Source: Steromphala cineraria | Lineage: Eukaryota > Mollusca > Gastropoda > Trochida > Trochidae | NCBI GenBank assembly: GCA_916613615.1 | Contig: OU744721.1 | Location: 79,551,060 to 79,615,059, forward strand | Direction of reading: 5' to 3' | Length of the DNA: 64,000 nt | Shown: positions 6,670-58,231 of the stretch, piece by piece | Position numbering within the stretch: position 1 is the stretch's first letter | Layout: the number at the start of each line of letters is the position of its first letter | Program-made: the position numbers and the translations under genes | Notes under the pieces: model-generated | Seen by the model: only the letters and a program-made list of their open reading frames with translations | Databases searched by the model: none | What the model was told of the DNA's origin: nothing

Positions 6670-6671
6670 AG

Positions 6672-7328: not shown

Positions 7329-7330
7329 CG

Positions 7331-8230: not shown

Positions 8231-8234
8231 ATTG

Positions 8235-8513: not shown

Positions 8514-8516
8514 TGA

Positions 8517-9533: not shown

Positions 9534-9765
9534 ACCGACAACCTGATGTTCCAGTTTGAATGGACTGTTATTTGTTAAAGTGTTTAATTCCAAACCGTTC
9601 TGAAGGACTTTTAAGTAATACCTACATGAAACAACTTCAAGCATTAATATCTTCTTAAAAGTTACTTAAAATTCATTGACTTTTATTAATTCTTCTTTCT
9701 TTTGATCACTTGTACAGGTGATTGCAATTTTCAACTCCTTTTCATGTTAAAGTTTATAGTTTTTC
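9534..9765 (+). other. 3' untranslated region of the Gypsy element
   Basis: 232 bases between the pol stop and the polypurine tract. It has no ORF of note and no second gene such as env. Confidence 0.7.
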
Positions 9766-9778
9766 AAAAAGAGGAGGA
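9766..9778 (+). other. Polypurine tract
   Basis: The all-purine run aaaaagaggagga directly abuts the 3' LTR, where plus-strand DNA synthesis is primed. Confidence 0.9.
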
Positions 9779-9931
9779 TGTTACAATATCTGGCCTGGTT
9801 ACCCTCGCGTACTTCCGGTTCTCCAGATTTTAATGTATCTCAGTTTCCGGTTAGTAAAATGGCTGACTAAACCCACGATCTCTCTCTCTGTCTTTCTTAT
9901 GGGCTTTACAACCCCACATGATATTGAAACA
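9779..9931 (+). repeat. 3' LTR
   Basis: 153 bp with the same ends as the 5' LTR and three substitutions relative to it. The GAATT duplication follows at 9932-9936. Confidence 0.95.
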
Positions 9932-24323: not shown

Positions 24324-25120
24324 TGTCTGAATCCTTAAACTAGTGCTATTAATTGCATTTCAGTTAGTGCAACTTCTTTTAATTGAGCATGTGCTTGTCA
24401 TATTTATTACATCAATTAATCATTTATCATCTACAACTTTCATGATCCAACAAGAAAACGAAAAGTATCATTTGAAATCATGGTCACACCTGAAAATGGA
24501 GCTTTTATAGTATCAGGCATCTATGAACAGTTATTAGCTTGTGCCTCTGCAACTGTCTGGCTGCTTTGATGGCAACTAGTAAATCATATTCACACACCAA
24601 TAGTGTGCTGTTATCAGTCAAACACACACGTTTCTTGCACAGATAATCCCTTTAAAACGCTGTTATGCATAGACAATCCAACTAATGAAGTATTGAACTA
24701 CTCAATCCTACTCGATTACTTCTGACATCTAAGATTCACGTTTTCTTTGATGTTACACAGTTTTGAAGTTGAAACACTACCTATACATCTCTAGAGTTAT
24801 ATCTCACTTCAACACACACATCTATTCTGTTGATAAACTCTTGATGAGGCGTGTGTACAAACCTACAGTTGTTCATTTTCTTGATCCTATCAGATCATCT
24901 GAGTCATCTTCAAAGAATGCTTGAGGTTATGTCACTGACAATGTCTTCACTCATATGTCGTTATAAGACAAGACAAGTAACATAAATCAAACTAAAGTCA
25001 TGTTCAACAATATGCACCTTTATATGTCAAATTTTCAATTACAAATATTTTGAGTTTTTGATGTCATATTCTTAAACTGATAAGAAGAAGAGTTAAATGA
25101 TCGTTAAATAAATACTTTAA

Positions 25121-28358: not shown

Positions 28359-28710
28359 AGGGGCAGTAGCACGTTATTTGATAATTTTATATTTTAATTT
28401 TGTTACCGATAATTGCAAGTGAATGCTTAATGTATTATTTTGACAGTGTCAAAAATCTCATTTCACAAGCCAATCATCCATAGCCTGAGTACAAAGTAGA
28501 TTTACATAAAATCCATTGGCGGCCATTTTGTGTGAACACCTTTAATTCAGTTTGTGTAAGAAAAAGGAATCGCATAGCTAAACTTTACGTTATATATTTG
28601 AATTATTACTGCTCCATTTAGTTTAAATACTTTGTCTTTCAATTGGAACCATTAATTTTTATTTTCCCGACATCACCTTACTTTCCCCCTAAAAACGTGC
28701 TACTGCCACG
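28359..28710. mobile_element. TTAA-flanked MITE, copy 1
   Basis: TTAA at 28355-28358 and at 28711-28714 flank 352 bp that begin aggggcagtagcacgtta and end aacgtgctactgcc. A second copy with TTAA on both sides is at 49198-49552. TTAA targets are typical of piggyBac and Kolobok. The element is non-coding, so it is non-autonomous. Confidence 0.82.
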
Positions 28711-30455
28711 TTAAGCCCACAGGAAATGGATATACACATTTTAGATGCTAGGGAACTCGTACATGTAAAAGATATTCATAAAAAATTTCATAATAAGTTT
28801 TTTACATTCGATTAAGGACTGAGCAATATGAGTTGATAGCCAAGAAAATATCTAATACTTATGTGCTAATATCTTATCTGTGCAAATTAGCGAAATGAAC
28901 AAATAGTTTTCTAAACAATTTAAGATCAAATAAGAAAGATCAAAAACTTATTTTTTGATATGTTGTAAATTACATTTTCGTTGAAAACGTGCTTATCGTA
29001 TTTTCTAATATGAATGGCGTAATATATTTCAACCATGTTCATGAACTAAAACGTTTTATTGATTATTTCAAATTATAGTCACTAATTAAAAGCAAGAATG
29101 CTCAAATTTTACTGGAACTGTGCAGTTAATGCCTCTTTGAGCTGAAATTTCAACTGTGTGCTACTGCAACTGTCTGGCACTTTAGATCTTGTGATGTCCC
29201 AGTATCAGAATACAAGCAGGTCCTTATCATGGAGGAACAGTTGACGTCCAGTATATCATTCTCTAACACCCATACTATATTGTTATCAATTAGACACACA
29301 GTCTCTTGTACCAATTATTCTTTAATGATGTCACATAAACAAACTCCCTGATGATTTACTATTCAACCACTATTAATCAACACCATATTGACAACTTTAT
29401 CATAAATATTGTTTGAATTTATGCCATTTACAATGTATTGTCTTCATATAAAAGTGAATGAAATTCGAAGCTAAAAGTCCTTATCAAATATTTACAACCA
29501 AAGAATCATACATGAATACAACTACCTATCAGTTTCAATGTTTTATACATTTTCTAAACATATACATGATATATTTTTTATAACATATACATTTTCAAAA
29601 CGAAATGAAAAGTAAGAGCTAAGCCATTTTGGAAAATTTCTTACCTACCTAGGCAGAAGAGAATCAATGGCCTTTCAGATAGTTCAGTGTCTTCTTCAGT
29701 AAATAATACCAAATACTTACTTTCTTTTTCCACACATATATGTAACAAGTTACAATTCAATATTTGCGACTTTAGGTTTACTGAAATGACATAATTAATG
29801 AGATTTACTTGAGAATGTGATGTGATTGATAATTTGAAAAATATTTGTCCGAAAGAAACACTTTGATATCAATAAAATCCTTATTAGTAGAACATAAAAT
29901 CGTTTCTGTTTATAAGACAGTCATTGAGAATGAAGTCCAAATACTTTTTCAAGGTCTTTATGAATGCCATCTTGTTACAATAAACATTATTTTGAATTCC
30001 TTTCCAGAATATTGACTATCGATAAGACGTTTAACTAGTGATGGGTAATCAAAGTGTTTCAACAAAACATGAAATGTAACACAAACACATGATATGAGGA
30101 AACTAATGGCTCATGTTGAAAAATCAATCCAGGATCTAATCCATCGCTGTAAATATTGTTATAAGGAGAGAAGCAGTCATTCCATTGATCTACTTTAAGA
30201 CCATTTAAATGTTTCAGTGTACAGAAACTCAGGAATTGACTGTAAAATACAAATGTAAATATATGTCATAGTATGTGAATCGTCGACAAATATGTCTTTA
30301 GATATATCATTTCCAAGCCTCACATGTGTTATAAATACATCTTTGTTAAGCTGCTTTTTAAACGTTATTGAAAATGGCATCTCATAACTAAATATGCTTT
30401 TGCTTACTATTATTGTAACTCATTGTTAAATGAAAACATACCTGTATATATTATT

Positions 30456-30897
30456 TCATCCTGCTACATCAGCGTATATGTCTCCGCTAATGCTACAACC
30501 TATCCCCTGATATCCTCCTATGGTCTTCTGTCGTATCGCTGACGGGTGGTTGCTCAGCGCTATTTATAGCCTGTATGTTTTCAGTCAAACTATTTCGAAC
30601 TCCATACACTGTTGTCTAGTGATGTCGCACGTGGAAATCTAAGAGCGCGTGATTTGGAGCTTAGTGGGAGACTGCAGTGAGAATCAGATTTATTATCTAA
30701 TAGCACTCCGATTGGTTAATTTGAATCACGAGGTGAGCACGCGGAACGAAGCCAAGTTAACTAGTTTGCCACTATCGCTGAAAGGGCATCATTTGATTGG
30801 CTTGCTATATATAGCGATACGACAGAAGACCATAGGAGGATATCAGGGGATAGGTTGAAGCATTAGCGGAGACATATACGCTGATGTAGCAGGATGA
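30456..30897. mobile_element. MITE with 85-bp inverted termini and TATTATT target duplication
   Basis: 30456-30540 is the reverse complement of 30813-30897 with a single mismatch seen. TATTATT precedes the left end (30449-30455) and follows the right end (30898-30904). The 272-bp interior is non-coding; a 69-codon ORF overlapping it is incidental. Near-perfect termini suggest a recent insertion. A 7-bp duplication is unusual and the superfamily is not assigned. Confidence 0.85.
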
Positions 30898-33504
30898 TAT
30901 TATTTTACTTTTCGTCTCTTCTGTCCTATGCTTGAAAAGTTTGAGGATCAATACCAAATCCTTGCTATTATGTGAATAACAAAGATGGATATCCATAACG
31001 TATTGCATTGTTTTCATTACCTCACAACTTCTAGAATGACACTCAACAAATTCACTTGAATCACCTCAATGGTGAGCAAACAAATCTTTTTATTCGTGTT
31101 TCTCTCCCTTTCCTGTTAGCAGCAGCTGGCTATATCTCATTACAGTAATTATCTGATTCAGGTATAATGCTCAGGTGAAAAAAAGGGCAAAGACCAACCA
31201 ACTGTTGTTTCACTTTGTATTTATAAGCATTGAAAAAAATCGTAATTCTAGCTGGAGAATCATTTCTATTAGATTAACTTACTTTTCTGTCGTCCTCAAA
31301 TTCTGTTTACTGCAGCTGGTTTCATTTGCAACCTGGAGTTCCAATTATACCCTTTATCTGATGCACTTTTGTACCTGCCATACACTTATTTGCAATTGTT
31401 TAGTGGTTCAATCTCAAAAGTTGATGTAAAGTGCTCATTTACACTACTAAGTTTGATTTACTTTTTCTTTAAAGTTAAACAAACTGGCAACCATAGTTGC
31501 TTCTGCCTACAAAAATATATATATTTAAAAACCTATTTGAATTTTTGTCTTCACCTTATTACATCTAGCCAATAATTCTTCAAATTGATATAAAGTACTT
31601 TATAATAGGCATAAAAAATGAGTAGTAATAGTTCGAATTTTTTAATATTTGACAGAAATGAATAAGAAACTTGAAGGACAAATTAATGGATATTTAACAT
31701 GACAAGTTCTCGAGCCATCTGAGCTAAATCAAATTCCAATTGCTATTAAAGGAGCATTAATGATTGTATAATTGAGTGTTGAGGGACAATCGATCATATG
31801 TCATGTCATGTCGATGTGACATTCCTCTCCTTATTAATGTGGGTCCCATTCAGTGCTTCTGCACTTTTTTCTATATTCTGAACATGACTGATTTAAATCA
31901 ATACATTTTGACATTTAAAAAAAATTATTTTCAAGAAAAGTGTTATTAAATATTACATGAGTGCTACTCATGGTCTTTCATCTTTCTATGCTTAGTTAAT
32001 TGTGGAGCTTTTATGTCATGTTTTGGACTGTTTGAACTGGGTACAATATTTGCCAACAATTTTCATCCTAAAGATTCTGATTTCATGAAGCAAAGTATTG
32101 ATATTTAGGTAGTCACGGTTATAACTCTTTATGTTTTTCCCAAGAAAATCACATTGGTAGTCGAAAGTAAAATAGCATGTATACTTGTGCTTTGAACTCC
32201 AACGATACTAGCCAATCATCTGTTTTCAATATACATTCTTGTTCTCATTATACTGATATTTTTAACAAAAGGTTGACTGAAACGAACAGAAAGAGGATAC
32301 ATAATGAATGTAAAGGAATAAAAGATTGCAATTCAAGATTAAGCTTTTACTTTTTACAACCTGTATACTAATACGTGCGTGATTTAGGCATAAGATACCA
32401 TGCAATTTTCCTTGTCTTTATGAAACAGGTGATCACAATTGCGTTCATTTACCTCCCAGACAACCAGACGCCACATTATTCTATATTAGATAAGAATATA
32501 TTTTCATCTTGAAACTGAAAACTGAAATTCTAAATATTGAGAGGGGTCATGGTTGAGTTGGAATTTTTACATATAATAACATTGGTGATATCATTCTTGT
32601 TCCATTCGTCCATTAACAATTTCAACATACATTTAGCTTTACAACGTGTGCATTTCCATACCATACTGAAGAAGAAATGACCTAGAAGTCATTTAATTGG
32701 TACGTTGGATCAACCACGCGATATGGTGAAGGCAGGCCAGAGAATGTTGGTCCATTAAACAGTGGATTGACTTACTGACATGAGTTTCCCCCTATCTTGT
32801 TTGTTACTTGAGCTCTATGATCTCTGCAAGAATGTCAGAGAGAACCAAGCCGAGAATTCAATGTTTATTCTGACCGATATATTTCAACTATTCAATTCAT
32901 TTTTTCAATCCGTTTTTATAGATTAGAAACACATTTTGATAAACATTAACTGAATCCTCAGTCCTTATGTTCCTGTTCGTCATTTAACTATTTTTATCTC
33001 ACACCTCACACACATATAAAACAGTTAATGAGGAAGTTGAAGAAATATAAGAAATAATTGTAATTGATTTGTAATTCTACAAGAGTAGAGTAATGTATGC
33101 CCTTTAGAATACTACAAGTGATATTTTCTCAATAGATAGATACATTTACTCAACACACGGCAGTTCAGTGTAAAATTTCTAAACACATTTGTTTCCTTTT
33201 CTTAAAGCATGATTGAAAACAGGTAAACTGTAAAGTTCATTGTCATCGATTATATTGATCTATCCTATGTAAGAGGGATAATGTATTGTTCTCATCTATA
33301 TTGTATTATCATAAGAACATCCTCTATTATTATAAAAATGTTCAAGTAATCAAGGGTTTTCAGTGAATAGCATTCTTGCACTGGTTGTTATGAAACCCTT
33401 AACAGTCCTGGTTTGATATGAAAACGATGTCATCTAGTTATTCGATCTAACTTATTCACCTCTTCAGGAGTCATTAAGGAAATCCTCGATTTAAAGTACT
33501 ATGT

Positions 33505-33882
33505 ATATGTTAAAGGACTTTTATTACACGCCCGTGTAAGATACCGCAGTGTAATATTTATACGGCAATATTAAACTAGTGTAATATCACAATGCAAGTA
33601 TGACGTCACAGAAGTGAGCTGTTGTGACGTCACAATGTAAGCGCTTCGTCACAATGGGTGCCGGGTCGCGGAACTGTTAGTTTCAGCACATTTTCAGCAA
33701 GTTTGCGTGATTTTTAGGGCATGTAATAAACAGAATACTAAACTTCCTACCATTTAATACTATTTTTATTAAACTCGTGAATGATTTGGTATCAAACTCG
33801 CTTTCGCTCGTTTTATACAAAATCATTAACTCGTTTAATAAAAATAGTATTAAATGGAAGGTCGTTTAGTATCCTCTATAAG
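33505..33882. mobile_element. Foldback insertion with paired CRE sites, copy 2
   Basis: The paralogous block at 55060-55100 runs straight from actatgtatag to gtgacc, whereas here about 375 bp lie between actatgtatatg and gtgacc. The insert contains two TGACGTCA sites, a GC-rich spacer and a strong palindrome (33739-33868) whose arms share catttaatactatttttatt. The loop holds ctcgctttcgctcg. It has no ORF of note. The in-window empty site makes the insertion call firm. Confidence 0.78.
33601..33632. promoter_or_regulatory. Two perfect CRE palindromes, 24 bp apart
   Basis: TGACGTCA at 33601-33608 and 33625-33632, centre to centre 24 bp, near the palindrome at 33739. Possible CREB/ATF-type binding; function is inference. 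Confidence 0.45.
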
Positions 33883-36617: not shown

Positions 36618-37400
36618 TTTTAACTGTAACTAAACAACGTTTTAAAATTGTTTTGATATCATGTATTTTTCGTAAATATGTCTTTGATACAGAGTCAACA
36701 TTTAAAGGTGTTTGGTACCTTGACGTACCCTAAAACACAGTAGTTGTAAGTTCTTTCGAGGTGCGATACCACAAAGAAGTGAGGCGACACATCGACCAAA
36801 CCCACCTTGGATGTGAAGAGGTAAGGTTATACAATATAACCATCGCACGCCTGGTTATACGAAATAGTTAACATCTGATATTGACCTGATAACCACACCA
36901 CGTGGTGTATAGAATGAAAAACGATAGAACTGTAAAAGAAAGTACTTCTTATCGATCAACTATTTCAGTAAACAAGCAGCTAATCAAAATTAAAGGGGAA
37001 ACCCCAATTTAGCAATTAATTAATTTAAAGTAGGCAGGGGTAAAAAATTTGATTGTTCAGGCGTTCATTGAAATACTTTTTTCGCAATAATTTCGTTAAG
37101 GTAATAAATTGTTCAACTTTTGTGCCAGGTATGAGCATCCCGAGTGTTATCACTTCAAAATCTGCCATGTGTAACGAAAAAGGCCAAAATTTGAATTTAA
37201 TCTACATCCAAGTTGTTCTATCAATGGGAATGTGTGGATAAAGTCCTACATGTCAGATTGACACATCTTTGAGTCGGACAAATGGTAACCAGTCTTACTT
37301 TGAATGAAATTGCCTTGTGTGGATGTCCAATAACTATCAATTGAGCAGTCGGTGAGCTCTAATTTCAACTGTTCAAGTTCATAAAGTGCACGAGAACTTA

Positions 37401-40400
37401 ATGGCATGTTTGCTATCCTTGACATCACTAAGAGACAACGTTATCGGTGGTCTAACGTTATAGATATCGGCCATCATGCAGTGAAAACAACTCTTTTTCG
37501 ATGTTTCAGGGTTGTCAGCAATCCTCACAACCTCTCTGTACAGCCGGATCAAGTTACCATAGGAAATGAAGGAACACTATTGATTCTTGTAACAAGGGTA
37601 GTTTTGATCAGTTTTGTTGATTTTCAATGGGGTAACGCAATATTTTTGCTTTGCCGTTAACCGATTTTAAGGAGTTTTTTCACAAACAGGGTGATAAACA
37701 TTCATTATGGACATTTATTCAACCTTTTCGTCAGGTGACAAAGCTCTGCTGGAAGGGTCACGTGATTATGACATTTTTGCCATTTTTTACACAAATCCAT
37801 AAATAAGTTTTAAACATAAAAGTTTGGGTTTCAACTATTTTGTTGACAACTTAACTGAAACAATCGATATGACATTGTTATCAAAATTTCAGTTTGAAAT
37901 GTGTAAAGTTTCTTTTGGAATTCAGTTTATTTGGTTAAGAGGTTAGAGGCTAAATCATGTGAAAATATCATTTTAATACAAAATTAACAAAGATTCTTTG
38001 CAATTAACCATTTGAACTTGCTAACCATATAATATTTTGTTTAGTAGCGTTTCAGTTAGTGAACCTTTATTGGACATATGCTTATACGACAATAATACGC
38101 TAAAACATTGGCCATTTTCATGAACTAAAAAGTTGAATTTATTTTTTTAAATCATTGTCGTAAGTTACATGTATAAGCAAGACTTACTTGAGCAGCGCCT
38201 TTCAACTGGGTGCTTCTCTCTGGTGGTTTAGATTTTATTGATGTCCCAGTATCAGAATACAAGCTGATGCTTAATATGGAGGTTCAGTTGACATCAAGTA
38301 GATCATATTCGTACATCTATGCTACAGTGTTATCAGTCAGTGACGCGACTCTCCTACTGATAATTCCTTGATTATGTTGACAAATGATTCAATTTGCAAC
38401 TTTCAATTTGTACCTAATACATGTGTATGTTGGGCTAATGTCACAAATATGACAAAAATTGAATCTTAACTAAAATGTGAAATGTCCTTATCAAATTTTA
38501 CAATTTACTGTAATAAACAGACATAAAAGATATCATATAACATTTACATTTTCAAAACAAAATGAAGAGTCAGATTTTCTTCATACCTATTTATCAATAA
38601 ACTTTAGTTTAGGTAAGAAATTCAGATTGCCCTAAAGTTACCAGAAAATATTTCTTGAGATACGCCATTGACAAGCCTTATAAGTGTTATAAGTGTGGGA
38701 CTAAACATGACCGTGAGCATTAGTGAAAAGTATGCCCGATGCCTGGGAGCTGAACATACTTTCAATAATTCCCATGGGTCACAATTTTATACTTAAATGG
38801 GTCACGTTTTATCGAACTTATATATCAACAGAAACAGTGTCGCCATGTTGGTTGTAACAAAAACTAGTTTTTTTTATATCATTGTCGTAAGTTACATGTA
38901 TAAGCAAGACTGCTCAAAATTTATTTGAGCAGCGCCTTTCAACTGGGTGCTTCTCTCTGGTGGTTTAGATTTTGTGATGTCCCAGTATCAGAATACAAGC
39001 TGATGCTTAATATAGAGGTTCAGTTGACATGAAGCAGATCATATTCGTACATCTATGCTACAGTGTTATCAGTCAGTGACCCGACTCTTGTACTGATATT
39101 TCCATGATTATGTTGACAAATGATTTAATTTGTAACTTTCAAGTTGTACCTAATACATGAGTATATTGGGCTAATGTCACAAATATGACAAAAATTGAAT
39201 CTTAACCAAAATGTGAAATGTCCTTATCAAAATTTACAATTTACTGTCATAAACAGACATAAAAGATATCATATAACATTTACATTTTCAAAACGAAATG
39301 AAGAGTCAGATTTTCTTCATACCTATTTATCAATAAACTTTAGTTTAGGTAAGAAATTCAGATTGCCCTAAAGTTACCAGAAAATATTTCTTGAGATACG
39401 CCATTGACAAGCCTTATAAGTGTTATAAGTGTGAAACTAAACATGACCGTGAGCATTAGTGAAAAGTATGCCCGATGCCTTGGAGCTGAACATACTTTCA
39501 ATAATGCCCATGGGTCACAATTTTATACTTAAATGGGTCATGTTTTATCGAACTTATATATCAACAGAAACAGTGTCGCCATGTTGGTTGTAACAAAAAC
39601 TGGTGATCAAAATGTAGGATTGGGAAGCGGCACCAGATTATCAGAAATGGAAATGGATTCATAAAACTAAATGACCATTTTGACCTTAATGACTTTGTAA
39701 CATTTGTGATATTCACACAGACTTGAAAAAAGATTCTCACACTCAGAGGCGATAACACTTTTCTATATCCGAGAACACTCACAACTTAGTACATAATAAA
39801 ACTCAGCATCTCTCCACTCAGCATATATCAAATATTATTGATGCATACAAATTTGTAAAAAAATATTCTTTTACAAATAGAACCGTATTTATATAAAATC
39901 TTATGTGGCCTTTCATATAAATCGCATTTGGCTGCTGTTGTTATAATTCATTGTTTTCACATATGTTTTGAATAAAAACATATCTATATTTACTGCTATC
40001 CATATACTGCTACATATGCATGAAAAAAATATAAGGATATATAACTGATAAAAATGAATAAAGAAGATGGATATCCATTAAATATTGTACTTTACTACAA
40101 AACTTCTAGAATTCTACACAAACAGTTCAAAATGAGTCACGAAATTGGTCAAAACAACCTTCTTACTCTCCCCTTCCTGTTAGCAACGGCTGGCTATATC
40201 TGTTTACAGTAACTTAATGGCATGTTTGCTATCCTTGACGTTACTAAGAGACAATGTTATCGGTGGTCTAACGTTATAGATATCAGCCATCATGCAGTGA
40301 AAAACAGCTCTTTTTAGATGTTTCAGGGTTGTCAGCAATCCTCACAACCTCTCTGTATAGTCGGATTAAGTTACCATAGGAAATGAAGGAACAATATTGA

Positions 40401-41143
40401 TTCTTGTAATAAGGGTAGTTTTTGACCAGGTTTGTTGATTTTCAATTGGGATTCGCGATATTTTTGCTATGCCGTTAACCGATTTTAAGGTGTTTTTTTT
40501 TAAACAAACAGTGTGACAAACATGCATTATGGACATTTACTAAACCTTTTCGACACGTGACAAAGCTCCGCTGGAAAGGTCACGTGATTATGACAAAAAT
40601 GCATGACTATTGCTCAATTTATAGTTTTAAACATAAAAGTTTGGGTTTCAACTATTTTTTGACAACTTGACTGAAAATATCGATATGACATTGTTTTCAA
40701 AATTTCAGTTTTAAAAGTGTAAAGTTTCTTTTGGAATTCCGTTTATTTGGTTAAGAGGTTAGAGGCTAAATCATTTGAAAATATTATTTTAATACAAATT
40801 TCACAAAGATACTTTGCAATTGACCATTTGAACTTGCTTTGCATATAATATGTTATTTAGTAGCGTTTAGATAGTGAACCTTTATTGGACATATGCTTAT
40901 ACAACAATAATACGACAAAACATTGCTCATTTTCATGAACTAAAAGGTTGAACTTATTTTTTTATATCATTGTCGTAAGTTACATGTATAAGCAAGACTG
41001 CTCAAAATTTATTTGAGCAGCGCCTTTCAACTGGGTGCTTCTCTCTGGTGGTTTAGATTTTGTGATGTCCCAGTATCAGAATACAAGCTGATGCTTAATA
41101 TAGAGGTTCAGTTGACATGAAGCAGATCATATTCGTACATCTA
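37401..41143 (+). repeat. Recent ~2.8-kb direct duplication (copies P and Q)
   Basis: The block starting atggcatgtttgctatcc at 37401 recurs at 40217. The two stay collinear, with offset 2816 to 2824 bp, up to 38.3 / 41.14 kb. There Q is interrupted by the 9-kb insertion and resumes at 50206. The copies are much more alike than other units of the array. Confidence 0.85.
38136..39602 (+). repeat. ~736-bp tandem duplication inside copy P
   Basis: Blocks at 38136-38871 and 38872-39602 share catgtataagcaagact, gtcccagtatcagaatacaag, cgtacatctatgctacagtg and gcccgatgcct in order, offset 736 bp. The second shares the palindrome gctcaaaatttatttgagc with copy Q, which the first has partly lost. Confidence 0.85.
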
Positions 41144-41167
41144 CAGACCCTTGCAGAATTAGTTACC
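41144..41167. repeat. Left terminal inverted repeat of the 9-kb element
   Basis: Begins CAGACCCTTGCAGA and ends TTACC. Over 24 bases it agrees with the inverted right end (50182-50205) at 18 positions by my count. Confidence 0.65.
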
Positions 41168-41173
41168 TGAAAA

Positions 41174-41377
41174 CCGCGGTCTGATTGCAGTCTGATCGCG
41201 ATCAACTGCATTCAGATTGCAGTTTGATCGCGGTCAACCGCGGTCTGACTGCAATCTGATCGCGGTCAACTGCAATCAGATTGCAGTTTGATCGCGGTCA
41301 ACCGCGGTCTGACTGCAATCTGATCGCGATCAACCGTGATCAGATTGCAGTCAAACTGCGGTCGACCCGATCAGGGG
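41174..41377 (+). repeat. Left 32-bp palindromic satellite array
   Basis: About six units. Two unit types alternate: A, tgatcgcggtcaaccgcggt then ctgactgcaatc, and B, tgatcgcggtcaactgcaat then cagattgcagtt. Each 32-bp unit is three 10-11-bp modules. In type B aactgcaatcagattgcag is most of a perfect 21-base palindrome. The array is very rich in CG and GATC against an AT-rich background. Confidence 0.88.
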
Positions 41378-42698
41378 TTGAGAGTGATTATAGACATTGT
41401 CTGCATGTCGGCAGTACAGCATAAGTTTAATCATAATAGATTGAGAAACTCAAATCTGCCGTATTCGGTCCAAATTGATTTTACTACCTGATTTGTTATT
41501 TGTTATTCAAACTTTAACAACGCACACTATTCCTTTGTTCAGATACTTCATGTCTACCTTCTACACTGTCGTAAAACGTATAGCGATTTTTTGCACTGGT
41601 TAAAAAATGAAATAATATCCTGCTGCATAAAGTGTAATTTGAATGTACCTTGCTACGACTTTTTGTAGCGTATGTGTGAAGTTATGAACATCGTTAACTC
41701 ATCATTACATATATTCCTCATTCATACAGGAGAGATATATCACTTTATGGTGTTATGAAAGCCCTTTGACTTCTCTGTAGTTTGTGGGTGTTTAAGTTTT
41801 AAGACGGCCGAATGAAATCGTGAAAATCTCCATGCCAATACACGTCATAACGTTATACACAAGTTTTAATGACAGACGTAAATTGTTAAAGAATTCGTGA
41901 TATCATATTTGATTTTGTTGAATTTTGGAGACAATAGGAAGAAGGAATAATTACTGATCATGATATTCTCGGTTTTTGGACAACACTGGGTAATTTAGAC
42001 AGGACACAATGGGAGAAAGTGGTATTATTGGTATATGACTGTCATTTTCAAATATTTTTTCAAAACTGTACATTTTAATTCTTTGTGTGCACGACCTTTT
42101 TTTTAATACATTTGGAGGAAATAAAGATGGCTTATCAATCATCGTGACAATCTCACATGCTAGTATGGTAAGGCATAACTGAAACGGTACAACCAGTAGC
42201 AGTAGTAATATAAAATGTTTCCATCAAATCAAGTCTAATGGTCTATTTTCAAGGTATAACTGAAATAGAACAAGAACACATATGTAATATTGATTATCTG
42301 TGATCAGTTTTGCCGATATATGTGCATTAATTTATATGCGAATTGAGAATTTTGAGAATTTCACCTTCCGGGCCGCATACCTTTAATGAGAAGAGACAAC
42401 CTCTATGTAGATTTTGTAATTCTGTCATGAATGTAAATATTACAGTGTTTATGTTTTCACGGTTAAGTTTATAATTATGATAACACCCGATAGAAACAGT
42501 CAGAGAAAAGTTTATGAATTAATTTTTATGTACAACAGCGACTTCTGACCGATGGTGTCATATACCGCATTGATGTTTCAAAAACGTTCATCTTTTACAG
42601 GTTTAACAAGTAGTTTATTGGTCGAGTCATTCAGTGTTGCTGCCAAATTACCAGTTATCAGTATGTCAAAAGTCTTGTACTTTAAAATGGTTCAGGTT

Positions 42699-42788
42699 CA
42701 TACACGTGGGATCAACAATTTAAGTGGGATCAACCATTTAAGTACGCGGATTAAAAATCGGCAAAAATCTTGTCGATCCCGCGTGAAT
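42699..42788. repeat. Short inverted repeat around tandem gtgggatcaac motifs
   Basis: cacgtgggatcaac (about 42704) is inverted as gtcgatcccgcgtg (about 42773). Between them gtgggatcaac is repeated directly with attta spacers. Confidence 0.5.
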
Positions 42789-42810
42789 GTCACTTCCACT
42801 TATCGAGAAT

Positions 42811-42932
42811 AATGCAGAGGAATATATGGATAACAACTTCTTTGGTCATTGAATCCAAAGTTTACAAGTATCTGTGTTGAAAAGCCGCATGCAATGAACA
42901 AGGAAGTTGTCATCCATATATTCCTCTGCATT
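42811..42932. repeat. Foldback with 34-bp arms
   Basis: 42811-42844 (from aatgcagaggaatatatgg) is the reverse complement of 42899-42932 with two mismatches, leaving a 54-base loop. It lies inside the 9-kb element. Confidence 0.85.
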
Positions 42933-43689
42933 ACTGTCATTCCAACTTATATCATGCCTCTCAAAGAAGTTAATCGAGAACAGTCGATTGGCTTAGAAGG
43001 ATTAACGCATGGATAATCCCGATCCTCATGAATACAATTGTCGACAGTAACTTGAGTTACGAGTTAAAACGAGACGTTTTACTAATTTACCATTAGCTGA
43101 AAGAGTATATGTCTTATATTTGTTTTTACGCTGTTAAAGTTGAGTACCATGTTCTTTTGTCCACAGTATACATACCATAGACAAGAGATTTTATCTATTA
43201 ATGTGGACATTTGTCAAGATTTTGTGCCTTTTAATCTAGCTTTATAATGTTCAGTCCAGAGTTTTTATGTATTGTTGCCAAAAGCTGCAGATTTAGTTCA
43301 GAAAAAGGAAAATCTTTTTTATGTTAGGTTAAATATATTTCATAGTCAATTTTGTTGTATTTATATTTCATATGTCGTAGTCTCTCATAACCCTCATATC
43401 AACGGTTGGCTCATATGTTTTTGTTTTTAGCAAAATATATATGTATGTAATTCATCTGATGCTAATAATGTTTTAATTTGTTTTATCTATTTGTAAATGT
43501 TCTATGTAACCTGGCACGTGACTTATTTTCTCTCTCTCTCTCTGTTGATCGGCCCTGTTCGTTTCATTCAAGGACATTTGAACTTGATTTGGAGAACTCA
43601 GCAGCTTCATCTCGTTTACTTTAGGGTGGGAGATTGCCCCTATTTTCCTCTTTATTGTGTATTGCTTTGCCTACATACCTGATACAAAG

Positions 43690-44420
43690 GCCGCCGCCAT
43701 TACTTCGTTAATTAACCCGTGACCCGATTTACTACCCAACATCTCGCTGTCCTACCGTCTCGCTCTAGGAGACAAATTACCACAAGAAACGACTTCCGGT
43801 TATGTAAAGGGCCATAAAGTCCCGATTGTTTCACGAAGATTAAAAAGGAATCGAAGTATAGTATGTTTTAACGTGTGATGTGTCATTTTGCTGCACTGAT
43901 TTAATTGGGGAGGGAGAGGAGAACACTGTTAAACATCCATTATTCAGTGTCGCCTACAGCTCGGCTGTACAATCTGAACGCACATACATCTGTAGATTCA
44001 AAGTCGGAACATCAAAGTCCTATTCAGCGATCAAAGCGGTATATCACATACATATTTCATATTAACACCGGTGACCGGATTGGTGGTATTTATTGTCTGA
44101 TATTGCTAAAGAGGTCATGTAATGTATTTTTTCCAGGAATGATAGATCGTTATTGCCAGTACCGTTATCTATGGGAATGAGCGGTTTAAGAGCGCAGCCG
44201 AAATTACCAGGCGAACACTTTGAAAACTCATTAGAGCGTGACCAGGCCTGTCGCCACTTGCGTATCTACCATAATGTCCGGAGATAAACCCCCTAAAAAC
44301 CTAAACCATTTATGCGTTAAAGTCTGATTTATAAAAATGGCAGAAGCAGGTACATTAACATCTAAGAAATACGCTAAACTCGAACTTTATAAAACGGTGA
44401 GTCAATTTTGTTTGCGGATT
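43690..44420 (+). other. CpG-rich patch with possible small exons
   Basis: This interval has clearly more CG dinucleotides than its surroundings. A frame open from 44138 to TAA 44285 (47 or more codons) follows a good acceptor (tattttttccag) but has no certain start. At 44337, aaaATGGCAGAAGC opens a 20-codon frame (MAEAGTLTSKKYAKLELYKT) that ends exactly at a strong donor, ACG|GTGAGT. It looks like a promoter with a first coding exon. I cannot find a phase-matched second exon with confidence. One candidate acceptor at 45591 opens a frame to TAA 45692, with SFWYWAK in it, but its phase does not fit. The whole is speculative. Confidence 0.25.
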
Positions 44421-47356
44421 CGCTTTGATGGATGTGACTGTACCATTATGCGGAATGTGATGATCCCAAATATAACATTGGTGCATTTTCAATACGAATC
44501 GAAACCTTATATATCATAAATATATCAATCACTGGTAACAATAATGTATGTTTAATAATTCTATTCTTGACATGTGTTGTAAAAATACGGATATTGATCA
44601 TAACTTACTATAGATAATTCACTGTGGCGTCTATATTTTTCATAAAAATAAAGATATCTTAATAAATAACATTTAACCGTCTACACTTTTCCTTTCCATT
44701 CATATCACCATGGTACAATTATCCACCGTCTAATGGCTCTTTAGAATAAATCTTTATTTTGCAGTAAACTCACAAAAATGTAACATTATTTAGGTATTCT
44801 TTTTTAGAAAATATTCGGTTTGGTTAAAATATAAACAATTTTTTATTTGTCACCGTCAGAAAAAACAGTCAGTGTATGTTATGTAAGATTCAGGAAACAA
44901 CAGACCATCAGATTATCACTTTAAACAGACAAGTCTAGCCACGACGGTGCCAATATAACAAGGAAATTTTATCAAGATGAAGCCTTGTTGCGTCATTTAT
45001 AGGGTTTTGAAATATACAATGCGACATGTTTATACAAATAAAAATTAGCTTGAATAAACTATTATTGAGCCGTCGGATATCTATGCTTTCGGAATAAATA
45101 AAACTTGAATGTATTTTGTAACTATTTGTATGTAAAATGAACGATGAAAAGGGTGTCATTACACGTTGAAACTACTCCCCTTCTCCTACGTCATAGAAGG
45201 TAGATACGCTCGTGACACGCTTCAGTGACCACAGATTCTGTTCGCCGCGGCTAATTAGGCAGTGTATTTAAAAAGCTGTATTTAGGCAGGTTACCGTCGT
45301 TCTTTCGAAAATTCAAAGTTGAATATAATTCAAATTGCAAACCCCTTTTCATGAATCCCCAAAGTGGCTATAGACCATTTTAGTCCTCCTTAACGATAAG
45401 AACTGATGAGGGATACACATTCCTAATCACTGATGAAAGTGGTATATCACATGATCATTTTATGTTACCGCCGGTGACCAGTTTGTCGGTATGTATTGAG
45501 TGACAATGGCGTCATCACTGTGTCTTGAATGTTGTGTCATATATTTAGACTGCTTCAATAAAATATAATGTCTTTTGACCTCAGGCGATCATTCATTGAT
45601 ATACTTTTTAAAAAGGATGAGTTAGTGTCAGGATTAATTGTGCAAACACTGAACGACGACAGTTTCTGGTACTGGGCAAAAAGGTTTTACTAAACAATGC
45701 TCATATTTGATAAAACCTAAATCAAGAATGTCATCTATGATGTTGAAAGAGATTATCATAATACGTTAGACATATATGATAGTAAGAATATGACATTATA
45801 ACGACTTATCTATTATTCTATTTTTTTTTGCATTAAATTACAAACTATCCACTGAAAAAAGATATAAATAATGTAATAATGATTTTTGATATCACAAAGC
45901 AAGAGTCTGATATCTAATAATTCCTAAATTTGATGATAATGATGTTTCTGAATAACATGAACCCGTAATGTAGCATAGCGACACAAACAGTGGTATATTA
46001 AAATTCAGTTATTGAAACAGTGTCAATTGTTCAATAGCAGCATTTACAGGAAATTGATACAGCCAAATGTTAATTCATGACATATTTACATTCAATCATT
46101 TCTTATGTTTTCCCGAAATGTTCACTAGAACTCCAACCAATCCCGATGTTATGTAACTACGAGACGAGTGACACATGAATAAACTCGTCGGTCTGTCCCT
46201 TCTAAGTAAATCCTGATTCACCGAGGGAGCTAGCTAATCACCGAGACATACACATGTACACCAGTTGTATGTACACGATGTCAGACAAACAGACAGACAG
46301 AATATTTGTGTCTCACTTGTTTACACTACCAATCTATCAGCACGAATAACTACCACCTGCAGTCGTTTTTTAGATTGTTATATTATTGTGCCAACACCCC
46401 AATCTTCCGGAAACACTAAGTCTTCATCTCGAAAATGAAGGAAACTCTTTTGAAAGTTCTAATAACCACAAACATATTTTTTTCTATTTCTTTGGAATAT
46501 ATGAAAGTCTGATTAAAATATTGTATAGTGCGTCAAAGGTCGCTACTCAAATATGTTCAGTTAGTCGCATTCCGTTTCGTCGAGTACTGTAGCCTACTTC
46601 ATTTATTAACTTAGATTCTCCCAGTGTCTCTTGCTCGTCAAACTTCGAATGATCGTCACAAAATCACCCAAGCGTTATTCGACGGATAGGTACAGAATCA
46701 GTTTTGAAAATTCGACGGATCAGGCTGTAATTGTTCAGTTTGGTAATGGAAGCCACTTTTGATGGGTCGCTTAGACTTGTCTGGCCACAAACCAGTGAAT
46801 GCATGACTACACACGCCCCCTTTTTGTGACCGGGCGTCATTAACAGAATCAGCCTCGTTATCTATACATCTATCGTAACAATACCACAGAAAAAAACCCA
46901 ATAAATAACGATTTTCAGAAAATGATTCCACTCAGTTAGATAAATCATTTGACGATGTAACACTACTAAGCATTTGGTGTAAAAGGGATATCAATGGTAA
47001 TTAAACAATTATTTAGGCGGTATATCAGTTGAATTAATGATGCGTTACTTTCTATGTTTATTGTGTCACAACCGCGCAAGTTTTATGGCCCCTAACCCAG
47101 GTGGGTTTTTCACAGCCGATAATTACGCTGTCTTAATGAAAGGCCAATTAAAGGTGTTTATTTGACAAATTTTTGAAAAATCGAAAAGTGGTAAAGTCGA
47201 GGTTAGTGGATGTTTAACTTAACGATTGACATGTAAAGTTCATTTACGGTAATTAATATGCTCACATGGCAATTTAAAGCACGATTTTCTTACTGAAATA
47301 AAGGGATCTTACGAAAAGATAAATACGTGTTAACAATTGCTAAATAAATAGAGAAT
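44421..47356. other. Interior of the 9-kb element, no gene recognised
   Basis: Mostly AT-rich. A block at 45400-45525 (gtggtatatcacat, ccggtgacc) is a diverged repeat of 43998-44115. No transposase motif (DDE, HUH, tyrosine recombinase) was seen on either strand. Confidence 0.4.
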
Positions 47357-47490
47357 ATTACCCGAGGCAGTGTGTCATATGACTTTTACGAAACGAGTGT
47401 GAATTTTGTTATTACCCGAGCGAGAGCGAGGGTTATACACAAATTTGCACGAGTTTCGTAAAAGTCATATGACACACTTCCTCGGGTAAT
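47357..47490. repeat. Near-perfect 134-bp palindrome, copy 3 of the CRE-linked family
   Basis: 47357-47394 is the reverse complement of 47453-47490 with one mismatch. The inner part continues to pair more loosely (gtgtgaattttgttattaccc with gggttatacacaaatttgcac). The centre is gagcgagagcgag. Confidence 0.88.
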
Positions 47491-47578
47491 AATTTCTTTG
47501 TTACCGATTCTATTCCTATTCTATCATCTTAAAAATATCCAAGAAACGGGCCGCTTCCGTTGCGACGGCCGACTACGA

Positions 47579-47586
47579 TGACGTCA
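47579..47586. promoter_or_regulatory. Perfect CRE palindrome TGACGTCA
   Basis: It lies 89 bp beyond the palindrome at 47357-47490, followed 18 bp on by a partial second site (tgacgtcc), so the pairing resembles that at 33.6 kb. Function is inference. Confidence 0.45.
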
Positions 47587-49197
47587 CGAACAATGGTGTT
47601 ATGACGTCCCAGGCGAAAAAATACGGGAACTCGCGCTACAACAATCGTTGCTAGGAAAAATTGATATGTGCACTAGTGCTCATATTGAAAATACGTCACC
47701 ACTTATTTCCAACCGTATGGGTAATAATACTTTGTATCAATAAAAATAGTTCTAAAACGAATGCACAATGTTCGGTTACGTCATGTGAGCCGATTTCCCT
47801 TCGAGCGGCCACATTGTATTCCATAATGTTCACACACTAAAATGGCCGCTCGGATGTTCAAGTTCAAGGGATCTGACTGATATGGCGAAACACAGTGTGT
47901 TATAAACATCCAACAAGCAGGTTAATTTCGAATATGGTAGAACTAATGGGTCACTAATTCATCAAACCTTATAGACACCTTTGAATGAGGCACCATTTTG
48001 ACAATAAAAATGATCGACACACACAAATATTCCAGTGCACATATTGTATATGTATTTTGTGTTATGATAGTGTGAGACAAGAAGGATTGCTAGCGTATCT
48101 AATTTCTACAGTTTAGTATTTAATTCAACGCCGCTTCAATTCATATTTCTCAAATCTGGATGAAAAACAAATATCAAACTCAATGAATATACTGTATAAT
48201 TTTCTGCCATATATTTTATGTAGGGTATGAAACTTTCTGTTGTTCTGTTAGTGAACGTCACCAATTATTATTTTTGGAAATATATCTTGGAACCGCCTTA
48301 GCATAACTTGTTGGCCAAACCGATTCATTTATCTTTAATGAAATGAATATGTTTAAACCAAATCAATGAAATCAAAAATGAAAAGAACAATATAATGTGT
48401 TTAAAACATCAAATCAGTGAATACATTATGAAAAGTGTCATGTTGTTGGGTATGCCAAATGAGGAAGAGGGCTGCAGCTCTAAATTAATTTTTTGTCGAA
48501 GATACGTTTTGGCAGTGGTTCAAACCAAGTATCGATTGTAATATTGTAATGATTAGTACCAGGATCAGCACCTACATATAATCGACCGAAATATTTGTAA
48601 TAACTTGAGGGAATTGGATACTCAAAGGTGTATACACGTGAACTGAATGTAATTGAAAATTTTGTTCATTGTCCATTGTTATCTGAAAACCAGTATAGTA
48701 TGACTAAATATTGGTGTAAGCTTTTCGTGTGTGATTATGATATTTTACGTATTTGTTATGAGTATCTGTAAAAGAAGTTGAAAATTTAACCTGTTCAGAT
48801 TCCCACGTTTCAGGTTAAACGTATACTGTTATTGTCATTAATTTCATTTAAGTATGATTATAGATTGAATTGATTATTCATCAGTGTTAAAACAATAGGC
48901 TTTCTTATAAACAGTTAAATATGGGGTCTCTGAAAATTCAAATGATTATTACCATATCACCCAGTTAAATATCTTGCTCATTGCGTAATAATACTTTTGT
49001 TTAATGTTCACTGTAATATTATTCACGCAAATCTATTACATATCATTACATGAAATATGTATAGAAAAACCTACACTTTGTCTACTCAACAGTTCTTATT
49101 ATCAGTAGAAACTGAAAATATAATGAAATAAATATTGCTCATCTCAAATAACCAATGTGTACAGATGAAATTGTAGACGAATTATTCTTTATATTAA

Positions 49198-49552
49198 AGT
49201 GGCAGTAGCGTGTTCTTCCTTGAAGAAAAACAATATAAATTTGTCACTGATAATTGAATGTTAATGATTAATGTATTATGTTGATAATGTCAAAAATCTT
49301 ATTACACAATCATCCATTGTAAGAAAATAAATTATAAAGTTTCACATAAAGACCATTGGCGGTCATTTTTGTATGAACAATTTTAACTCATTTTGTGTAA
49401 GAAAACAAGAATCCAATGGCTGAACTTTACAAAATATATTTAATTCATTACTGCTTCATTCAGTTAAAATATTTGTCTTTCAATTGGAACCATTTATTTT
49501 CCTTTTCCTGACATCAGCTCATATTCCTCCAAAAAAACGGACTACTGTCCCT
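49198..49552. mobile_element. TTAA-flanked MITE, copy 2
   Basis: TTAA at 49194-49197 and 49553-49556 flank 355 bp that begin agtggcagtagcgtgtt and end in actactgtccc. Aligned with the copy at 28359-28710 it shares attggcggtcatttt-type, tcaattggaacca and gacatca blocks. It sits inside the 9-kb element. Confidence 0.8.
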
Positions 49553-49979
49553 TTAAAATATCCTTTATATGTGATTCCAGAATACGATTTGTCAAACCTT
49601 ACGCAATTTTTTAAATACTATAATGTTTATTAAAATCACGCCTCACAACACATAACCTAATCTTATTCAATTCGAATTGAGTAAAAGAAAATTATTTGTA
49701 TTGATTACTGATAATCACTTCTGGCCGTAACAAGTGAAACGGTGATACCGATGTTGCATATAACTACTACATGTATAGTTTTTACAATTAACATGTTTTA
49801 TTTGGTCATAAAACATATGCCTTTTCCATACATATGTAAATCAACCATAACGTTGTTTATGCGTTTTCAAATTATAACTGGCGACAAACATATCTGTACA
49901 AATTGACTGTCCTCTTTATATCAACTGATGGGCTTTATAGATCAAATTTTCCTTCTTTCAATGATTCTGAATTGTTCAC

Positions 49980-50175
49980 GGTCAAACGCGATCAGAATGC
50001 GATCCGATCGCGGTCAACCGCGGTACGACTGCATTCTGATCGCGGTCAACTGCAATCAGATTGCAGTTTGATCGCGGTCAACCGCGGTCTGACTGCAATC
50101 TGATCGCGGTCAACCGCGGTCCGACTGCAGTTTGATCGCGGTCAACTGCAATCAGATTGCAGTTTGATCGCGGTA
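49980..50175 (+). repeat. Right 32-bp palindromic satellite array
   Basis: About five to six units of the same two types as at 41174-41377 and in the same orientation. The first unit or so is degenerate (cgcgatcagaatgcgatc). One unit is a chimera of both types (gtccgactgcagtt). Confidence 0.88.
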
Positions 50176-50181
50176 GGTACC

Positions 50182-50205
50182 GGTAAAGATATCTGCAACC
50201 GTCTG
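50182..50205. repeat. Right terminal inverted repeat of the 9-kb element
   Basis: Ends TCTGCAACCGTCTG; read inward from the end this is CAGACGGTTGCAGA. TA follows at 50206-50207. Confidence 0.65.
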
Positions 50206-51134
50206 TATGCTACAGTGTTATCAGTCAGTGACCCGACTCTTGTACTGATATTTCCATGATTATGTTGACAAATGATTTAATTTGTAACTTTCAAGTTGTA
50301 CCTAATACATGTGTATATTGGGCTAATGTCACAAATATGACAAAAATTGAATCTTAACCAAAATGTGAAATGTCCTTATCAAAATTTACAATTTACTGTC
50401 ATAAACAGACATAAAAGATATCATATAACATTTACATTTTCAAAACGAAATGAAGAGTTAGATTCTCTTCATACCTATTTATCAATAAACTATAGTTTGC
50501 AAAACTTTAGTTCGCATATTATGTTGTCACTTTATCGACTATGAACTTGAAAACCATGTCAAGAAAGACAAACAAAAGTTACCAGCAAATATTTCTTGAG
50601 ATACGCCATTGACAAGCCTTATAAGAGTTATAATATTAGGAGTGGGACTAAACATGACCGCGAGCATTAGTGAAAAGTATGCCCGATGCCTGGGAGCTGA
50701 ACATACTTTCAATAATGCCCATGGGTCACAATTTTGTACTTGAATGGGTCATGTTTTATCGAACTTATATATCAACAGAAACAGTGGGGAAACAATTTTG
50801 TAATTAAATACAAAGTGATGGAAGCAGTAATGAAAAGATGTGTCATTGAGAGTTGATTCAATTTGTTTTCGGTTGTGAAACACATTGTGCGAACTCAGTC
50901 ATGTCAGCCTTGGTATGTGTTGCATGTGCAGCCACCATGTTTCTGCAGTGGTACTTACGTGATTTTCACCTTAAAATCGACTCAAAATGTCTAGATGGTC
51001 AAATATTTTTTTAAGAATGATAAATGAATATTCCAAGCCTTAGTGTACCTGAAAATAAATGTATAATATAAAATATCAAACCAAACTCAGACCTTTGTTA
51101 TGAAAGGACCTCACATTGGAGCTCCATCAGGCCT

Positions 51135-56678: not shown

Positions 56679-56706
56679 AACTGACGATCAAAAGAAAGTT
56701 GTCACC
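56679..56706 (+). repeat. Tc1 terminal inverted repeat, left
   Basis: Begins AACTGACGATCAAAAG, preceded by TA. Exact reverse complement of 58204-58231. Confidence 0.93.
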
Positions 56707-56946
56707 CACTTCAGTTGACTCTAAAAGATAAACGACATCAGATACAAGTTTGATGTTATGAAATATTTTTACTGCGTTAATGTGTGATTATCCATGCAAA
56801 GAATCGAATTGCTGCCAGTGCATCTCAAATATTTACAGTCTCTGAAGACCACTGGGGGTCCAAATTGTCATTTTCCACACAACTTTGGAAAACGTCTATG
56901 GCACATGAATCGGCGATTCCTAGTACTGACAAGTGTACATATCACA

Positions 56947-57957
56947 TTAGTACCTTGTATGTCCTCCCCTGGCACGAACACAAGCGTCACATCGTCTTCT
57001 CATGGAGGACGTCAGTCTTCTGATGACGTAATCAGGTATCTGTTGCCACGTATCTTGTAAGGCATTTTCAAGTTCTCGAATAGTAGTTGGTTGGTTTGGA
57101 CGGTTCCTTAACTCTCTACCAAGATGATCCCACAGGTGTTCGATAGGAGACATATCGGGAGAACGTGATGGCCAGGGCAAAACGACGACATTAGCGTTGT
57201 CGAGATAGTTCTGAGTGATCCTGGCTGTATGGGGAGTTGCATTGTCTTGCTGCAGAATGGTTTCCATTGCTCGTTGCTGCAGAAATGACACTGCTACAGG
57301 TCTCAATATCTCATCAACATAGCGTTGTGCGTTCATATTGCCACGTATCACCACAAGTTGTGTCTTCTGGTCATCACAAATTCCACCCCAAACCATTAAA
57401 CCAACTCCTCCTTGTTGATGAACGTCTTGGACACAATTTGGAGCCTCTCTTTCATGTCTACGACGATAAACACGTATTCTCCCATCAGCATGGAACAGGT
57501 TAAATCTACTCTCGACAGTAAAGAGAACGCGTTGCCATTCGCGTCGCTGCCAACGCAGTACATGTCGTGTCCATCGAAGTCTGGCGAGGCGATGTTCGAG
57601 GGTCAGTGCCATCCCACGAAGAGGTCGGTAAGCCCTTATTCCAGCATGAAGTAATCGTCTCCTCACAGTGTGTCGACTCACACGACGACCAAGCGCTGTT
57701 GCTGCTGAGTGCGTCACTGTCAGGAACCGATTACGAAGATGTAAAGTTCTAAGGAAAAGGTCTTCCCTGCGGGTTGTGACACGTGGTCTGCCACTCTGAG
57801 GTCGGTCACGTGTTGTGCCAGTCTGCTGGAACCGCTGAAAATATTTAGTTATACATTGGCGTGAACAACCAAGTCTTCTTGCTATTGTTGACTTTTCGGT
57901 CCCCATCATGGCCATGCCAATGGCCCTCTCCCTCTATTCAGCAGTCAAACGTGGCAT
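56947..57957 (-). pseudogene. Tc1-type transposase (DD34E), catalytic Asp lost and start cut off
   Basis: The intact frame from ATG 57915 gives 322 residues: paired helix-turn-helix DNA-binding part (STIARRLGCSRQCITKYFQRF), GRPR motif (SGRPRVTT), second helix-turn-helix (GRRVSRHTVRRRL), then the DDE core. The first catalytic residue is changed: LFTVESRF has Val (GTC, 57516-57514) where the family has Asp. The second Asp (QQDNATPHTAR, residue 224) and the Glu (SPIEHLW, residue 259) are intact and 34 residues apart. Upstream in frame, ATG 57957 starts MPRLTAE and is followed by TAG (57936-57934), then RERAIGM joins the long frame. So the original protein was about 336 residues, as usual for Tc1, and codon 8 is now a stop. 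It would cut and paste the element by its termini; as it stands it cannot catalyse. A bound but inactive protein might still act as a repressor. Confidence 0.93.
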
Positions 57958-58203
57958 TGCTTTAGTGCTTTTATCGGTTGATGTGATAGCAAGTTACCAT
58001 TGTCACGGGTTTATATGGAGTTATGTGCATGAAAATTCCAAGGAAATTAAAAAAACGTGGTTTTGACTTTTGGGACGCAGCACGGATATTAACAAATGCA
58101 TCAGCTTGGTTCTTTGGAAATGAGAGTGTTGCGTTTGTGTGAACTGCTCCTGAAAGTTAAAAACCTGGGTTCGAATCCATTTTGGAAATATTCAAAATTT
58201 TAT

Positions 58204-58231
58204 GGTGACAACTTTCTTTTGATCGTCAGTT
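58204..58231 (-). repeat. Tc1 terminal inverted repeat, right
   Basis: Exact reverse complement of the left terminus, followed by TA at 58232-58233. Confidence 0.93.

Follow-up and report, generated by a model that had tools for sequence, protein, structure and literature searches.

A probable non-autonomous, TA-targeting transposon family with palindromic decamer arrays at the ends of a 9-kb body in Steromphala cineraria

Subterminal tandem repeats as such are already known from several groups of DNA transposons. In Muta1 and other Mutator-like elements (MULEs) of Aedes aegypti, an imperfectly palindromic terminal motif is followed by a subterminal repeat of nine 12-bp units with 3–4 bp spacers, and many non-autonomous derivatives are described (PMC5225508). 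Subterminal tandem repeats also occur in MtPH-A6-4, a plant PIF/Harbinger group from Medicago truncatula with element sizes from 431 to 25,288 bp (PMC2213677), and subterminal repeats in the hAT elements Buster1 and Buster2 (PMC4298943) and Hermes, where a quasi-palindrome is precisely positioned (PMC10368747). Here, we analysed a 64,000-nucleotide stretch of the genome of the gastropod Steromphala cineraria (contig OU744721.1, positions 79,551,060–79,615,059 of the forward strand; hereafter the window), which carries a 9,062-bp insert at 41144–50205 with a tandem array beside each end. An earlier, sequence-only reading of the window knew no named family with this plan, which was too strong in view of the repeats in Muta1 MULEs, MtPH-A6-4 Harbingers and hAT Busters. 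In our analysis, the insert is probably a recently inserted member of a non-autonomous DNA transposon family that moves by cut and paste, targets TA and carries stacks of palindromic decamers as putative binding platforms.

hAT elements make 8-bp target-site duplications and Helentrons are not known to make any; typical Tc1/mariner elements are 1–5 kb long, and CAG is common at the tips of pogo/Tigger ends. The insert duplicates TA, and its tips begin with CAGAC. Helentron/pearl elements are not known to have a duplication or inverted repeats at their very ends, and the insert, which has both, was not placed among them. Like the Muta1 MULEs, it has a subterminal tandem repeat next to a short terminal motif, but the MULEs, in the portion of the description available, make 8–9 bp duplications, carry their repeats in long inverted repeats and have derivatives with heterogeneous interiors, whereas here the duplication is TA and the body homogeneous (PMC5225508). 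MtPH-A6-4, in the available text of its description, has a 3-bp duplication, arrays in opposite directions where both are present and a repeat copy number of 2 to 35, whereas that of the insert is near-fixed (PMC2213677). The accessible parts of the Hermes and Buster descriptions contain no helical stack of 18 sites such as that of the insert (PMC10368747, PMC4298943). On the 2-bp TA duplication we rejected membership of hAT and MULE, which duplicate 8–9 bp, and of PIF/Harbinger, which duplicates a 3-bp TWA. ISL2EU shares the 2-bp duplication and the AT-rich target; according to the excerpt available, however, it duplicates AT (A|AT|T, within AATT) and its ends usually start with GG, and it was rejected on both counts (PMC4482050). 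The TA duplication is shared with Tc1/mariner (including pogo) and its miniature derivatives; no transposase of that superfamily was found inside the insert or as a partner, and the insert cannot be assigned to Tc1/mariner without its transposase.

The junctions of the insert can be read to the base. TA stands at 41142–41143 on the left and at 50206–50207 on the right, and the window contains two intact copies of the target, reading ATCTATGCTACAGTG at 38315 and 39051, both upstream of the insert. The flanks, joined with a single TA, align to the empty site of paralogue 2 (38869–39304, + strand) with 435 matches and one mismatch in 436 bases and no internal gap. The more diverged paralogue 1 (38142–38568, + strand) gave 407 matches, 19 mismatches and 11 internal gap positions. 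From the ungapped match to paralogue 2 it follows that the insertion was precise, and recent when set against the split from that paralogue. The extent of the insert, its TA duplication and the two intact targets had been described correctly from the sequence alone. The target block is present in about three copies (37395–41143 and 50206–50786), the first two 94.98% identical and the second 100% identical to the left flank over 187 bp, and belongs to diverged longer repeats that run through the window.

The left inverted end, CAGACCCTTGCAGAATTAGTTACC (41144–41167, + strand), and the right inverted end (50182–50205), which reads CAGACGGTTGCAGATATCTTTACC on the − strand, match at 12 of 14 and 18 of 24 positions. 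They are thus imperfect, as had been noted. Among 200,000 random window pairs, two reached 12/14 and one reached 18/24. The shared sequence is CAGACnnTTGCAGA, followed by five positions that look unmatched and then by TTACC. On the − strand, a host repeat in the window carries CAGACAGTTGCAGA, which matches the tip motif exactly at 24546–24559 and with one mismatch at 29163–29176; neither match adjoins TA, and both are probably due to chance.

Tandem Repeats Finder gave a 32-bp period at 41172–41374 and 49972–50174. The sequence-only reading had reported a 32-bp satellite beside both ends; the two arrays stand, while the unit proved finer, each 32 bp being composed of three palindromic decamers, RAYYGCRRTY, with linkers of 0, 1 and 1 base. 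Because these fill 32 bp, the decamers are spaced by 10.67 bp, one turn of B-DNA. The left array (41172–41363, + strand) holds 18 decamers in six units with steps of 11, 11 and 10, and the right array (49984–50175, + strand) holds 18 in the same direction; the longest exact run shared by the two arrays is 74 bp in direct orientation versus 16 bp inverted. The unit pattern has seven matches in the window, all within the insert, and none in shuffles. The whole unit is itself palindromic at 26 of 32 positions (0 of 2,000 shuffles), and, as a single strand, the left end forms a strong fold (z −12.7). The G+C content of the arrays is 0.53 and 0.55, and their observed/expected CpG ratios are 1.39 and 1.65, as compared with 1.02 in the interior of the insert and 0.70 in the window.

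Across the 36 decamers of the window copy, A2, G5 and T9 are invariant, C6 is kept in 35, and 29 fit the full motif. In the core YGCR, positions 4 and 7 covary in 34 of the 36 (CGCG in 19, TGCA in 15), which none of 5,000 shuffles equalled. The two decamers that break this pairing, at 41354 and 49995, each sit in an innermost unit, and the innermost units are the most diverged of both arrays. We also read 99 decamers, picked by a motif-guided walk, from 11 other ends or elements of the family. Their steps are 10 or 11 only, A2 is present in all 99, and the 4–7 pair is kept in 90 (0 of 3,000 shuffles), or in 25 of the 32 distinct decamers (0 of 3,000 shuffles). Decamer spacing and core dyad thus persist in diverged relatives. 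Array length is similarly stable: all 21 copies are free of indels in the left array, and the right array, covered in 14 copies, has none in 11, lacks exactly 32 bp in two and lacks 1 bp in one. The array patterns were absent from the viral and genome contig collections searched, on which ground a derivation of the satellite from viral or prokaryotic contigs was rejected, and the end pattern was absent from the viral contigs. Words of the array and end sequences met chance matches only, among the papers listed from the open-licence literature.

The same ends recur throughout the 1.27-Gb source genome. The left 357 bp found 448 candidate places, and all 40 that were scored were full length at 97–100%; a 1-kb stretch of the interior was at or near full length, and 91–100% identical, at 35 places among 40 scored. 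At 20 of the 40 left-end loci, which were read to 10 kb, TA preceded the left end in every case, and the 13 loci that reached the right end within this distance all had TA after it. Ten further loci were chosen by their interior match, with only the expected end regions read. Here the left end was found in six, the right end in nine and both in five, and every end found had TA and no mismatch in 24 bp. TA stands on both sides in all 26 insertions seen at both ends, which include the window copy, two diverged members (L057 and L067) and five miniatures, two of which (L062, L063) are probably a local duplicate pair. Across the genome, the end pattern occurred at 203 + 196 = 399 sites when TA was not required, as against 0 + 0 for the reversed control; with TA, but without TTACC, it occurred at 232 + 225 sites (457), as against 4 + 10. 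On contigs C1–C3, a search that placed no TA requirement listed 72 ends, and TA precedes all 72 of them. With TA in the pattern, a right end that has CC in place of GG occurred 18 + 28 times. Other loci with equal ends and TA duplications, which the sequence-only reading had named as the sign of a family, are therefore present.

For pairing, we took the first 100 of the 457 end sites with TA. These gave 37 facing pairs within 20 kb, with lengths of 122 bp (six pairs), 132 bp (one) and 8,353–18,284 bp (30), and the sampled element lengths are bimodal. Extrapolated from this sample, with about three in four of the 457 sites taken as paired and four fifths of the pairs as large, the genome would hold roughly 130–140 large copies, or about 0.1% of its length. 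Two facing pairs span 15.5 kb (G000:C1:24233875-24249369) and 18.3 kb (C3:67280172-67298459); in the 15.5-kb pair, the position of the interior match leaves about 5.6 kb extra on the side of the left end, which suggests that an insert is nested there.

The interior of about 8.6 kb (41364–49983) is common to the family. Projected onto an intact copy (L010), 20 copies and the window element were 97.47–99.67% identical over 4,122–9,098 aligned bases of 9,106, the cover being short in some copies because nested inserts move the remainder outside the 10 kb that were read. The interior is therefore not variable cargo; in place of the variable interiors that had been expected at other loci, we found a single 9-kb sequence, indels and nested elements aside. 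Three sub-lineages are near-identical inside: the window copy with L010 and L013 (99.6–99.7%); L020, L023 and L024 (99.4–99.5%); and L014, L015, L017, L019, L021, L022, L025, L026 and L027 (98.9–99.5%). This signifies that the complete 9-kb unit moved repeatedly and recently. Pairwise difference is 0 over bases 1–28 and 0.58% in the left array, as compared with 2.1% for the interior; on the right side, it is 0.15% in the outer 101 bp of the array and 1.5% in the whole array. The left-end figures are biased because the loci were chosen by their left end, whereas the right-end figures are unbiased. On these comparisons, the ends appear more conserved than the body.

Diverged and miniature members extend the family. 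A member of 11,001 bp (L057/L058) is colinear with the window element in pieces of 77–93% identity, has the equal plan and is flanked by TA on both sides, and one of 4,910 bp (L067) matches at 88–94%. Three others (L059–L061) are exactly 122 bp long and consist of 28 bases, six decamers (64 bases) and 30 bases between TA and TA. Being under about 600 bp, with terminal inverted repeats and no coding sequence, they are miniature inverted-repeat transposable elements (MITEs), a class for which the 9-kb form is too long. The 122-bp members carry one central decamer array, and for this reason the contrast that had been drawn with carriers of a single central array fades. In this they resemble the Helentron/pearl carriers of bivalves, non-autonomous elements with a short tandem array; those Helentrons, as far as the available text describes them, have subterminal inverted repeats with the central array, unlike the insert with its TA duplication and terminal inverted ends (PMC11136912).

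Such miniatures could mean that the 9-kb form is a 122-bp one-array element split by foreign DNA, that is, a MITE with a fixed passenger. Their one six-decamer array between equal tips fits this origin, and the arrays of the 9-kb form are co-directional and share the 74-bp exact run, as the halves of one array would. However, divergence in both arrays is highest in the innermost units, as at array edges and not at a split centre, the interior shows no separate inverted ends past the arrays, and each array, with 18 decamers, is longer than the six of the miniature. The opposite order fits equally well: the first three decamers of L059 are the first three of the left end of L057, and its last three are the last three of the right end of L057, as would be expected had the direct arrays lost the interior that lay between them. 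Either a single array was invaded by the interior, or the miniatures arose when direct arrays recombined or underwent a deletion between them, and the decay at the inner edges leans towards two separate arrays. A split MITE is a possible but less probable origin.

A CACTA/TRC-like system would likewise combine a 2-bp duplication, short ends, long subterminal repeat regions and a cargo of several kilobases. Animal CACTA/TRC elements resemble the insert in their 2-bp duplications and short inverted ends, with sizes up to 9.2 kb for one described element, and, in the available part of that description, differ from it in their CCC tips and encoded transposase (PMC1636069). The insert has CAGAC tips, not CCC or CACTA, and no such transposase was found inside it; CACTA/En-Spm/TRC was rejected on the tips, while its 2-bp (or 3-bp) duplication agrees. 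TA at 72 of 72 ends is also a stronger target rule than that of the TRC description, the available text of which gives no fixed dinucleotide (PMC1636069). We consider a system of this kind unlikely.

An autonomous element, whose transposase would be split over small exons or belong to a type that Pfam lacks, was the other option of the sequence-only reading, which had envisaged a split gene. The large size and recent activity of the 9-kb element would suit it, as would the fact that much of the body is common to two sub-lineages at 77–93%. Six-frame scans of the window copy and L010, in which stops were written as X, gave no Pfam family up to an E-value of 1, and the same procedure, as a positive control, detected the reverse transcriptase, RNase H and integrase of a long terminal repeat (LTR) element in the window. 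Six frames of the interior had no match to Protein Data Bank sequences at E up to 0.1. The longest open stretch, 91 codons, was equalled or exceeded in 83 of 100 shuffles, and no frame of at least 60 codons is open in all copies: all 22 such frames of L010 are broken in at least one of 13–20 others. Interior differences, with indels, are spread throughout. A codon-phase test against L057 gave no consistent signal; the lowest p value, 0.0009 of 163 overlapping windows and uncorrected, came with an excess in one phase near 4,380–4,500. In the diverged members no Pfam hit reached the curated cut-off, as judged from L067 and the first 9.8 kb of L057, the last 1,154 bp of whose element lay outside the scan. 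Weak hits of L057 to PRIMA1 and CR_prot_dom_plant were rejected, as they scored at most 20 bits against cut-offs of 34–39 and came from one low-complexity-like stretch in three frames. An autonomous element is accordingly very improbable. An integrated large virus or Polinton was also considered, and no frame or domain of such an origin was found.

Larger open frames in some copies belong to nested elements at varying places, with a reverse transcriptase in L019, a FLYWCH finger in L026 and a DDE_3 fragment in L018. The nested element of L026, at about 4353–5546 in element orientation, has duplicated CATAGAAGG at its flanks, as for a MULE. A one-off rearrangement with ends that occur nowhere else, for which we found nothing in favour, is refuted by the 399 end sites, the shared body and the TA at 72 of 72 ends, and has a negligible probability.

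The family therefore shows insertion that is precise and flanked by TA on either side, ends that do not vary across many loci, a homogeneous body in at least three sub-lineages, each nearly uniform internally, and 122-bp members with equal ends. Terminal inverted repeats, a duplication of fixed length, presence at many loci and no transposase gene found are the features of the non-autonomous cut-and-paste class, and the insert shows all of them. The evidence for mobility is solely the precise insertion and the many loci. The mobile unit is the whole 9-kb segment, in which no protein gene was detectable, and its enzyme must come from elsewhere in the genome. A large non-autonomous passenger of a TA-targeting enzyme, as the sequence-only reading had proposed, is thus supported.

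Several observations weigh against this reading. No transposase was identified, so the cut-and-paste mode is deduced from the TA and the ends. Among the first 100 end sites, 26 lack a facing partner within 20 kb, and at the right end the pairwise difference in the last 31 bp is 0.92% instead of 0, mainly through two changes in L027. When only distinct decamers of the window are counted, the 4–7 pair is kept in 14 of 16, and 19 of 5,000 shuffles were as good; tandem duplication could spread symmetric variants without selection. The outer pair 1–10 and the pair 3–8 are no better matched than chance in the window and its relatives. Direct arrays, as opposed to inverted ones, are unusual for transposase sites at two ends, and the binding role of the arrays is putative.

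On a non-autonomous transposon of this type, a dimeric DNA-binding protein, either the transposase or an accessory factor, would load the 18 one-turn palindromes of each end along one face of the helix. The loaded nucleoprotein stacks would then pair and bring together ends that lie 9 kb apart, and a TA-specific DDD/E transposase, supplied in trans, would cut beside the CAGAC tips and join them to TA. The 122-bp members suggest that the tips and six decamers are sufficient and that the element could do without the interior, which would be ballast. In Hermes, a quasi-palindrome formed by two subterminal repeats is bound cooperatively by two BED domains, according to the available part of its description (PMC10368747); the comparison may serve as an analogy and does not imply membership. 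A more specific proposal, which we regard as rather doubtful, is that a helically phased filament platform of 18 dimers per end on one face, and not a compact end-binding domain, lets a TA-specific transposase synapse distant ends. If this were true, 122 bp and about 9 kb would be two stable presentations, with one shared array at touching tips or one array per distant end.

The insert and its surroundings contain further repeats. Within the insert lie two nested palindromic mini-elements, at 42810–42933 (arms of 42 nt, 93%) and 47356–47491 (arms of 39 nt, 97%; part of it matches 33764–33843 at 76%), and an internal direct repeat of 78 bp (44018–44095 and 45421–45498, 77%). A nested MITE-like repeat at 49236–49556 is 78% identical to 28395–28714; its edges, TTAAAGTGGCAGTAG...CTACTGTCCCTTTAA, were read by eye only and suggest a TTAA target. 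Outside the insert, two more palindromic or inverted-repeat mini-elements lie at 30450–30903 and 33727–33880, and part of the second matches the one nested at 47356–47491 (76% over 83 bp). The LTR element is a Gypsy-type retrotransposon at 5059–9931, with 153-bp direct repeats at 5059 and 9779 (98%) and RNase H, reverse transcriptase and integrase between them. A Tc1-like element at 56679–58231 has perfect inverted arms of 30 bp (TA included) and a 328-codon stop-to-stop frame related to the Sleeping Beauty transposase; it was rejected as the mobiliser of the insert, from whose ends its own (AACTGACGATC...) differ.

Searches of the open-licence literature on the plan gave the above precedents and, among the papers listed, no match to this family. 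Within that literature, the combination of a one-turn palindrome stack of near-fixed length, a large homogeneous non-coding body and two size classes appears to be new. Non-autonomous transposons mostly shrink, and gene-less families of about 9 kb with homogeneous copies are unusual among them. The decamer stack provides a testable hypothesis for how a transposase finds and pairs distant ends, for which the natural 122-bp members suggest a minimal substrate. With a unit number that is near-fixed across copies, the arrays indicate that a short genomic 'satellite' can be a functional transposon end and not a spreading tandem repeat.

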